Assembly (NCBI RefSeq): GCF_004343725.1
Contig: NZ_PTQW01000012.1
Coordinates: 1-64,000, forward strand
Length of the DNA: 64,000 nucleotides
DNA from: Treponema sp. J25
GTDB taxonomy: Bacteria > Spirochaetota > Spirochaetia > Treponematales > Breznakiellaceae
Reading direction: 5' to 3'
In this document: positions 28,227-29,494 of the stretch, piece after piece
Layout of the letters: every line of letters starts with the position of its first letter
Position numbering within the stretch: the stretch's first letter is position 1
Translations under genes and position numbers: made by a program
Notes under the pieces: model-generated
Told to the model about the DNA's origin: nothing
The model's input: only the letters and a program-made list of their open reading frames with translations
Databases searched by the model: none

Positions 28227-28242
28227 GTTAAGAGCCTTTAGT

Positions 28243-28329
28243 GGAGCGGTGTCCGAGCGGTTTAAGGAGGCGGTCTTGAAAACCGTTGAACCTGCGAGGG
28301 TTCCGGGGGTTCGAATCCCCCCTGCTCCG
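28243..28329 (+). tRNA. tRNA-Ser (anticodon UGA)
   Basis: 87 nt. Acceptor GGAGCGG pairs with CTGCTCC, discriminator G. Anticodon loop CTTGAAA gives UGA. The long variable arm and the T-arm GGTTCGAATCC fit a class II tRNA-Ser. CCA is not encoded. A structured repeat follows at 28393. Confidence 0.93.
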
Positions 28330-28392
28330 GAGAGCCGGCATAGATCCGGATGGTACTTTCTTCCGAAGAGAGGCAGAAGGGGTTCCCCCTCC

Positions 28393-28517
28393 GGGGGATT
28401 CGAACCGACGCCTTCGCCGACCAGCGGGAGGAAAAGGCAACAGGATGCTGCCGGCAGAAGGCGGAGGCGGGTTAGAAGGAATGGACAGGACGTCCATGAC
28501 CGAAAACCGAATCCCCC
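28393..28517 (+). repeat. tRNA-Ser-linked structured repeat, copy 1
   Basis: A 125-nt unit closed by GGGGGATTCG and its complement CGAATCCCCC, both derived from the T-arm of the tRNA just upstream. Inside are CGCCTTC/GAAGGCG and two hairpins with GGA in the loop (28436-28452, one mismatch in the stem; 28481-28497). It is followed by TGCTCCGG, a remnant of the tRNA 3' end. It is 121/125 identical to copy 2. It lies on the same transcript as tRNA-Ser(UGA). Confidence 0.8.
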
Positions 28518-28568
28518 TGCTCCGGTGATCCTCCAGGAACGCCAGGAAATCCACAGAAGGTAATTAGT

Positions 28569-28656
28569 GGAGCGGTGCGAGAGAGGCCGAATCGGGCTCC
28601 CTGCTAAGGAGTTGTACCCCTAAAGGGTACCGGGGGTTCGAATCCCCCCTGCTCCG
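28569..28656 (+). tRNA. tRNA-Ser (anticodon GCU)
   Basis: 88 nt with acceptor GGAGCGG/CTGCTCC, anticodon loop CTGCTAA (GCU), long variable arm built on GTACCCC/GGGTAC, and T-arm GGTTCGAATCC. The 3' half is the same as in tRNA-Ser(UGA). CCA is not encoded. Confidence 0.93.
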
Positions 28657-28871
28657 AAGAACCGGCATAGAGCCGTATGACACTTCCTTCCGAGAGAGGC
28701 AGAAGGACTTACCCCCCGGGGGATTCGAACCGACGCCTTCGCCGACCAGCGGGAGGAAAAGGCAGCAGGATGCTGCCGGCAGAAGGCGGAGGCGGGTTGA
28801 AAGGAGTGGACAGGACGTCCATGACCGAAAACCGAATCCCCCCTGCTCCGAAGAACCGGCATAGAGCCGTA
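28639..28871 (+). repeat. 39-nt direct repeats flanking repeat copy 2
   Basis: The last 18 nt of tRNA-Ser(GCU) plus 21 nt beyond (28639-28677) recur exactly at 28833-28871, so copy 2 is bracketed by a duplicated tRNA 3' end. This is like att-site or rtT-type tandem duplications at tRNA ends. No integrase gene is near. Confidence 0.8.
28718..28842 (+). repeat. tRNA-Ser-linked structured repeat, copy 2
   Basis: 125 nt with the same closing stem as copy 1, an inner CGCCTTC/GAAGGCG stem, a perfect hairpin GGCAGCA-GGA-TGCTGCC (28761-28777), and a second, TGGAC/GTCCA, around ACAGGACG (28807-28821). Short open frames in it are not plausible proteins because conservation follows the stems. It lies between tRNA-Ser(GCU) and an intrinsic terminator. 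Confidence 0.8.
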
Positions 28872-28906
28872 ACATATTTGGTGCCATAAAAAAGCGGCAC
28901 CAGACC

Positions 28907-28941
28907 GAAAAACTGGGGAACCAAAGAGACCCAGTTTTTTT
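28907..28941 (+). terminator. Intrinsic terminator after repeat copy 2
   Basis: AAAAACTGGG pairs with CCCAGTTTTT around a 12-nt loop, with the T-run running to 28941. A second hairpin, TGGTGCC/GGCACCA (28879-28902), stands just upstream. The tRNA-Ser(GCU) transcript including repeat 2 should end here. Confidence 0.8.
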
Positions 28942-28943
28942 AT

Positions 28944-29017
28944 GAGGCTGTAGCTCAGCTGGATAGAGCTTCAGATTGCGGATCTGAAGGTCGGAGGTTC
29001 GAATCCTCTCAGCCTCA
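28944..29017 (+). tRNA. tRNA-Arg (anticodon GCG)
   Basis: 74 nt: acceptor GAGGCTG/CAGCCTC with discriminator A, D-arm with GG and A20, anticodon stem TCAGA/TCTGA around TTGCGGA (anticodon GCG), T-arm GGAGG/CCTCT. A20 and A73 support Arg identity. Most bacteria read CGU/CGC with an ACG (inosine) tRNA, so GCG is notable. It lies 7 nt ahead of tRNA-Ser(CGA). Confidence 0.88.
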
Positions 29018-29024
29018 GGCTTTT

Positions 29025-29111
29025 GGAGAGATGCGAGAGCGGTTGAATCGGACGGTCTCGAAAACCGTTGAACCCGTAAGGGTTCCGAGGGTTCGAATCC
29101 CTCTCTCTCCG
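29025..29111 (+). tRNA. tRNA-Ser (anticodon CGA)
   Basis: 87 nt with acceptor GGAGAGA/TCTCTCC, anticodon loop CTCGAAA (CGA), long variable arm and T-arm GGTTCGAATCC. It is followed by the third structured repeat. Confidence 0.92.
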
Positions 29112-29138
29112 CTGGAGTATTTCGTTGGTAAAGGAAGC

Positions 29139-29262
29139 GAGGGATTCGAACCGAAACCTTCGCCGACCAACGGAAGGAAAAGGCGGCAGGATGCCGCCGA
29201 CAGAAGGCAGAGGATGGTCGGAAGGGACGTGCAGGATGTACGTAACTAGAGCCGAACCCCTC
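29139..29262 (+). repeat. tRNA-Ser-linked structured repeat, copy 3 (divergent)
   Basis: A 124-nt unit closed by GAGGGATTCG and CGAACCCCTC, following the T-arm of its own upstream tRNA-Ser(CGA) (GAGGG/CCCTC). Hairpin 1 is GGCGGCA-GGA-TGCCGCC (29182-29198) and hairpin 2 is ACGTGCA-GGA-TGTACGT (29227-29243). Relative to copies 1 and 2 the stems change on both sides, keeping pairing and the GGA loops. CCTTC/GAAGG is also kept. Confidence 0.78.
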
Positions 29263-29293
29263 ATTCTGCTGAGATAAAAGTGCATCTTTTTAT

Positions 29294-29386: not shown

Positions 29387-29494
29387 TCCCATCATCAGGA
29401 ACCATGCGAAAAAGCTCTACCCAACCCCGCCAGGTCCGGAAGGAAGCAACGGTCAGTAGGGTCTTTTTGCGCCGTGGACCTCCTGATGGTGGGA
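29387..29494 (+). ncRNA. ffs: Signal recognition particle RNA (small bacterial type)
   Basis: The conserved core CAGGTCCGGAAGGAAGCAAC with its GGAA tetraloop and asymmetric loop is present. The ends pair as TCCCATCATCAGG with CCTGATGGTGGGA, and TTTTTT (29495-29500) ends the transcript. At about 108 nt it matches the 4.5S-like class that binds Ffh. It is probably transcribed with tRNA-Ser(GGA) just upstream. Confidence 0.92.

Follow-up and report, generated by a model that had tools for sequence, protein, structure and literature searches.

Folded units behind tRNA genes in Spirochaetota and other phyla as probable parts of a very small non-coding DNA cassette

The tRNA-linked folded units of Treponema sp. 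J25 belong to an apparently undescribed family of non-coding elements, small in size, large in number, and present in several phyla. The units are probably the folding part of a very small non-coding DNA cassette that would lodge in tRNA and tmRNA genes at the T-loop. In such a cassette, a copy of the gene's 3' end beginning at C56, often with a terminator, is followed by a core of about 110 nt whose fold forms on the tRNA-sense strand. A basal stem, P1, closes the core, and the right arm of this stem is the following copy of the tRNA 3' end. The units fit a tiny recombination element targeted at tRNA genes better than they fit the regulatory RNA put forward in the original prediction. The family is held to be new because it does not belong to the known systems with which it was compared, and because a limited search of the openly searchable literature yielded no account of such elements. 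A motif found downstream of tRNA genes in Methanopyrus (PMC5217627) was rejected as a relative, being a short palindrome unrelated to the units.

The window, that is, the whole stretch of 64,000 nt that was analysed, contains a tRNA cluster in the order Ser(UGA), Ser(GCU), Arg(GCG), Ser(CGA), and Ser(GGA), as annotated by ARAGORN. The repeats of about 125 nt that had been predicted behind the first, second, and fourth of these genes were located (Table 1), and are 96% and 71% alike over 131 nt. Within the window, tRNA-Arg(GCG) and tRNA-Ser(GGA) have no unit, as had been reported. The described closing stem derived from the T-arm, the inner CCTTC/GAAGG stem, and the two hairpins are likewise all present, with GGA in both hairpin loops of all three copies. 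The copies sit in a tRNA operon without terminators. Across the window, Rfam matched only tRNA and SRP RNA; no family reached its gathering threshold over the units, and nothing relevant appeared over them at E values up to 10. The SRP match is a bacterial small SRP RNA lying directly 3' of the tRNA-Ser cluster (29393-29491; RF00169, 66.6 bits).

Table 1. Positions of host tRNA genes, units, and repeated tRNA 3' ends in the window (CM, covariance model; fold z is relative to shuffled sequences).
Feature	Position	Strand	Basis
tRNA-Ser(UGA), host gene of unit 1	28242..28330	+	ARAGORN, Rfam
Unit 1, folded core with basal stem P1 (28393-28401 with 28509-28517)	28393..28517	+	CM R1, 125.5 bits; fold z -5.1
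Copy of tRNA-Ser(UGA) 3' end from C56, with one C fewer than the tRNA	28508..28524	+	Sequence reading; 3'-end-copy statistics
tRNA-Ser(GCU), host gene of unit 2	28568..28657	+	ARAGORN
Unit 2, folded core with P1 (28718-28726 with 28834-28842)	28718..28842	+	CM R1, 129.4 bits; fold z -5.5
Unit 2, inner hairpin P2b GGCAGCAGGATGCTGCC, GGA loop	28761..28777	+	Sequence; consensus
Unit 2, hairpin P3 TGGACAGGACGTCCA, GGA loop	28807..28821	+	Sequence; consensus
Unit 2, left direct repeat of 39 nt, from C56 in the tRNA to 20 nt beyond the tRNA end	28639..28677	+	Repeat-length analysis
Unit 2, right direct repeat, identical 39 nt	28833..28871	+	Repeat-length analysis
tRNA-Ser(CGA), host gene of unit 3	29025..29112	+	ARAGORN
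Unit 3, folded core, P1 with GAGGG matching its own tRNA	29139..29262	+	CM R1, 113.5 bits; fold z -4.1
Degenerate copy of tRNA-Ser(CGA) 3' end	29253..29270	+	Sequence reading

Relatives of the units are widespread. A first DNA search found them in 73 of 149 related genomes, and a covariance model was built from 29 diverse copies. With this model (E < 1e-6), the window's genome has eight copies: the three in the window, three in tandem behind tRNA-Met, one behind tRNA-Pro, and one behind a degenerate tRNA end. At least 81 of 393 Spirochaetota genomes carry the family, a lower bound obtained with strict filters. A pattern scan of named genome contigs, combined with the model, placed further copies in records of Omnitrophota, Deltaproteobacteria, Seleniivibrio (Deferribacterota), Elusimicrobia, and Armatimonadetes, with up to 11 copies per carrier genome. 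In the class of the deltaproteobacterial genome GWB2_55_19, units occur in 30 of 63 genomes and lie near tRNA genes at 17 of 18 loci inspected. Contamination is therefore an unlikely cause of this spread. No real match to a unit was found in phages or plasmids. In viral contigs, the matches to a first pattern were rejected as chance similarity in coding sequence, and none of four matches to a second pattern was positive with the covariance model.

The placement of the units is consistent throughout. Among 222 usable non-redundant copies, 207 lie on the strand of a tRNA or tmRNA gene and start no more than 600 nt beyond its 3' end, and most of the others stand behind 5'-truncated tRNA pieces. 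The host genes include tRNA-Ser (81), Met (24), Pro (15), Ala (11), Gln (10), Arg (9), tmRNA (6), and nearly every other isotype. The family had been described too narrowly as linked to tRNA-Ser: in relatives, copies also stand behind tRNA-Ser(GGA), tRNA-Arg, and tmRNA, and the association is with tRNA 3' ends as such.

The boundaries of the units are set by the host gene. The right arm of P1 is the beginning of a copy of the host tRNA's own 3' end; of 157 such copies, 150 have T-loop C56 as their exact starting point. The copy stops at the end of the tRNA in about half of the 157 and otherwise extends up to 65 nt beyond it. The first 17 nt of the tail match the upstream tRNA without a mismatch in 125 of 196 copies, as against 1 of 1960 comparisons with tRNAs of other isotypes. 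A closing stem that matches its tRNA, as predicted, is supported. The left arm of P1 is complementary to the same host stretch (9.55 of 11 positions, against 7.16). The left boundary of the units reads GATTCGAA-N-C, and their right end has CC or GC before GAATCC, never GTT. In one tRNA-Ala unit (L024, 1400-1623), the tail CCCCTTATCTCCA matches the tRNA-Ala of a locus in another genome (L017) and not its own 3' end; this mismatch suggests either a transfer or a later replacement of the tRNA end.

The fold of the core is shared across the family. Basal stem P1 is followed by stem P2, which encloses a small hairpin and P2b, and then by P3. The small hairpin has the form CC-GA-CC-nnn-GG-GA-GG with tandem G-A, P2b is a hairpin of the GGCGGCAGGATGCCGCC type, and P3 presents a second such loop, of the form C-A-[G/C]-G-A-N-G. 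A third GGA, in GGGAGGA, is part of a third small hairpin with tandem G-A pairs. In an alignment of 150 copies, 95.5% of cells are paired, double changes occur in all 28 pairs, and covariation scores 0.55, compared with 0.15 for shuffles, values that lean towards structure because related sequences were aligned on the basis of the structure. The compensatory changes first noticed among the three window copies hold in this larger sample, with very strong covariation of stem pairs. Additional copies and covariation, both named as checks in the original prediction, were thus found in abundance. Two elaborations of the fold were seen. In the GWB2_55_19 class (L313 and L314), one outer stem can enclose two or three repeats of the P2a-P2b-P3 module, and in L033 (1657-1804) the tip of P2b is extended by the perfect palindrome GGATTTTTCAACGTTGAAAAATCC.

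In 174 of 183 copies, the better fold is that of the tRNA-sense strand and not of its complement, a bias that fits folded single-stranded DNA, or RNA. The stems vary almost purely as Watson-Crick pairs with few G-U: G-U accounts for 1.5–1.8% and A-C for 0.7–1.5% of the alignment cells, compared with 5.4% and 0.2%, respectively, in the acceptor stems of neighbouring tRNAs. At column pairs 105-204 and 108-201, G-U is nearly absent although G-C, C-G, and A-U all occur. In sequences that are GC-rich and aligned to a structure, such a low G-U content is suggestive, pointing to DNA without proving it.

Transcription terminators bear on the same question. Between the tRNA and the first unit, a T-run is present at 42 of 85 non-Ser loci, and 40 of these 42 have a terminator hairpin. 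The median distance from the end of the terminator to P1 is 14.5 nt at the 42 loci, which leaves no room for a promoter. The proposal that the units are transcribed with their tRNAs is therefore not upheld as a rule, and the pattern makes little sense for a by-product of tRNA processing. In tRNA-Ser clusters, a T-run occurs in only 9 of 72 spacers. Cassettes in tandem can carry different terminators (L059, L063, L064, and L070), as would be expected if every insertion came with a tRNA end and a terminator of its own.

An alternative is that the units are functional non-coding RNAs, made with tRNA precursors or by read-through and folded on the sense strand, that bind a protein through their C-A-[G/C]-G-A-N-G loops and have spread by duplication along tRNA operons. 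We consider this unlikely. It agrees with the better folding of the sense strand, the slight excess of G-U over A-C, the lack of terminators in most tRNA-Ser clusters, and the conservation of the loops (GGA in 114 of 126 P2b and 97 of 126 P3 loops), yet an RNA role leaves the exact C56 boundary and the copied acceptor strand unexplained, and it is at odds with terminators some 15 nt ahead of half of the non-Ser units and with the near absence of G-U at the two column pairs above. Overall, we place a role of the units as DNA well ahead of a role as RNA.

Comparison of sites and cores, rather than direct observation, suggests that the elements move. Cassettes are about 130–260 bp long (median 181; 132–467 measured tail to tail) and contain no genes. 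An empty site, with 20 nt between tRNA-Ser(UGA) and tRNA-Ser(GCU) (L040, genome G104), has a filled counterpart in the same genus (L032, G128), where a unit lies between the same two genes and the right flank is identical to that of the empty site. Similar cores stand behind different hosts, such as Arg and His (L113 and L197, alignment score 0.81 per base), Val and Ser (L016 and L018, 0.77), and Asn and Thr (0.7–0.8), and each P1 and tail fits its own tRNA. The core therefore spreads, with arms that differ from target to target. Several genomes contain units whose closest relative stands behind another tRNA of the same genome.

Some of the presence and absence could nevertheless be due to deletion or unequal crossing over between the copies of a tRNA 3' end. 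Alternatively, the units would be old, immobile repeats of tRNA operons, duplicated and deleted in tandem through recombination of these copies, with arms matched by gene conversion or quasipalindrome correction. Tandem arrays are indeed common and include copies with identical spacers, cores are very diverse, and no accompanying enzyme was found among the Y1 transposases, integron integrases, and reverse transcriptases searched. This explanation is improbable, however, in view of similar cores behind different isotypes and tmRNA, patchy occurrence across phyla, and empty and filled sites that differ by a single unit.

Larger insertions are also found at some loci. Between units at L109, L153, and L294, toxin–antitoxin and ORF6N-type genes were recognised from their translations; these genes were rejected as cassette cargo, the cassettes themselves being free of genes. 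Small ORFs resembling HigB/HigA and DUF4258/DUF2283 toxin–antitoxin pairs were read at L153 (3235-5248), beside degenerate units behind tRNA-Glu. L109 and L294 contain 5'-truncated tRNA pieces and are consistent with ordinary islands at anticodon loops, which would have displaced the unit together with the tRNA 3' half. At L154 (429-4536) and L142, an intact tRNA-Val(CAC) is followed by an insert and then by a tRNA-Val 3' half, starting from the anticodon loop, with its unit; the intact gene lies 3.9 kb and 1.4 kb upstream of the 3' half, respectively. Such a displaced 3' half with its unit is what an ordinary island leaves when it inserts at the anticodon loop.

The original prediction held that the GGA hairpins, freed by tRNA processing, sequester CsrA, and csrA, the absence of which had been named as an argument against this, is present in the window's genome. 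CsrA needs GGA. Titration as the function of the family is nonetheless very improbable, since csrA was found in all 21 genomes tested, the nine without units equally with the 12 that have them; GGA is missing from 12 of 126 hairpin-1 and 29 of 126 hairpin-2 loops (10–23%), where its main replacement is CGA, so that the loop is conserved and not the GGA itself; and terminators cut many units off from the tRNA promoter. CsrB/RsmY-type small RNAs share GGA in hairpin loops with the units, but there is no family match at threshold. A weak similarity of unit 3 to the CsrB model, at 13.2 bits and far under the threshold of 71 bits, speaks slightly for titration. Locally, the three window copies, with GGA in both loops, may bind CsrA.

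If the units are parts of a T-loop cassette, the cassette would recombine or insert as a folded single DNA strand at TT|C56. The host tRNA would thereby keep a complete 3' end, and often a terminator too, and the displaced 3' end would become the right arm of P1. The left arm would then be fitted to the new tRNA by guiding, by templating from a nicked bottom strand, or by later correction of an imperfect palindrome. The enzyme would act in trans. The window copies need not have a function for the host. A bolder version, which we offer tentatively, is that the element retargets itself: a folded DNA core would move between tRNA and tmRNA genes and acquire both P1 arms and its end from each target, a nucleic-acid-guided or target-templated T-loop insertion common to several phyla.

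Among the candidate enzymes, neither Y1 transposase, integron integrase, nor reverse transcriptase tracks the units in co-occurrence. The Y1 transposase (PF01797) is absent from G000, G027, G327, G481, and G341, all of which have units. The integron integrase (TIGR02249) falls under the cut-off in G000 and G038, both rich in units, and in G033 and G341, and exceeds it in genomes without units, such as G091. The window's genome, which is 99.9% complete, has no Y1 transposase, no integron integrase above the cut-off, no reverse transcriptase and, among TIGR02249-related matches, only two Xer-like tyrosine recombinases. As no examined enzyme class tracks the units, the mobiliser may come from elsewhere or be a housekeeping recombinase. 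In G033, a reverse transcriptase gene lies about 0.4 kb upstream of a unit-bearing tRNA-Met (G033:C1:2609130-2609705).

The nearest working likeness to the units is the attC site of integron gene cassettes. Both are kept by fold rather than by sequence, have pairing boundary boxes, and form tandem cassettes, and in both the target supplies the right half; the covariation and strand asymmetry of the units are those of a folded single-strand hairpin maintained by its structure. The likeness fails on boundary boxes and integrase. AAC (R'') and GTT (R') are conserved at the two boundaries of attC sites (PMC2727003), whereas the units lack both, their cassettes have no gene, their target is the tRNA T-loop, and genomes rich in units, G000 and G038 among them, have no integron integrase. 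Islands and satellites that integrate into tRNA genes through the att sites of tyrosine recombinases also target the 3' part, supply a replacement 3' end, and leave direct repeats, which in the units run from C56 to or beyond the tRNA end. In contrast to these islands, the cassettes are very small and encode no integrase, their arms and tail are rewritten for each tRNA, and the folded core is conserved across phyla. REP/RAYT repeats and MITEs are likewise short, non-coding, foldable, multicopy, and intergenic. The units differ in their single orientation, fixed place behind tRNA genes, and lack of a fixed terminal sequence, and the RAYT-type Y1 transposase is missing from the window's genome. 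The rtT repeat of the E. coli tyrT operon also lies downstream of a tRNA and carries a tRNA 3' end.

Even if the units acted as RNA, they would represent an unnamed structured family present in many genomes. If the cassette interpretation is correct, they would be widespread minimal elements that exploit the one stretch common to all tRNA and tmRNA genes and adapt their own ends to each target. The way would then be open to look for a new enzyme of DNA-folding recombination or of guided insertion, and a further source of variation in tRNA operons would be added. The interpretation would also account for the non-coding arrays that follow tRNA genes in spirochaetes, Treponema among them, in Omnitrophota, and in deltaproteobacterial lineages.
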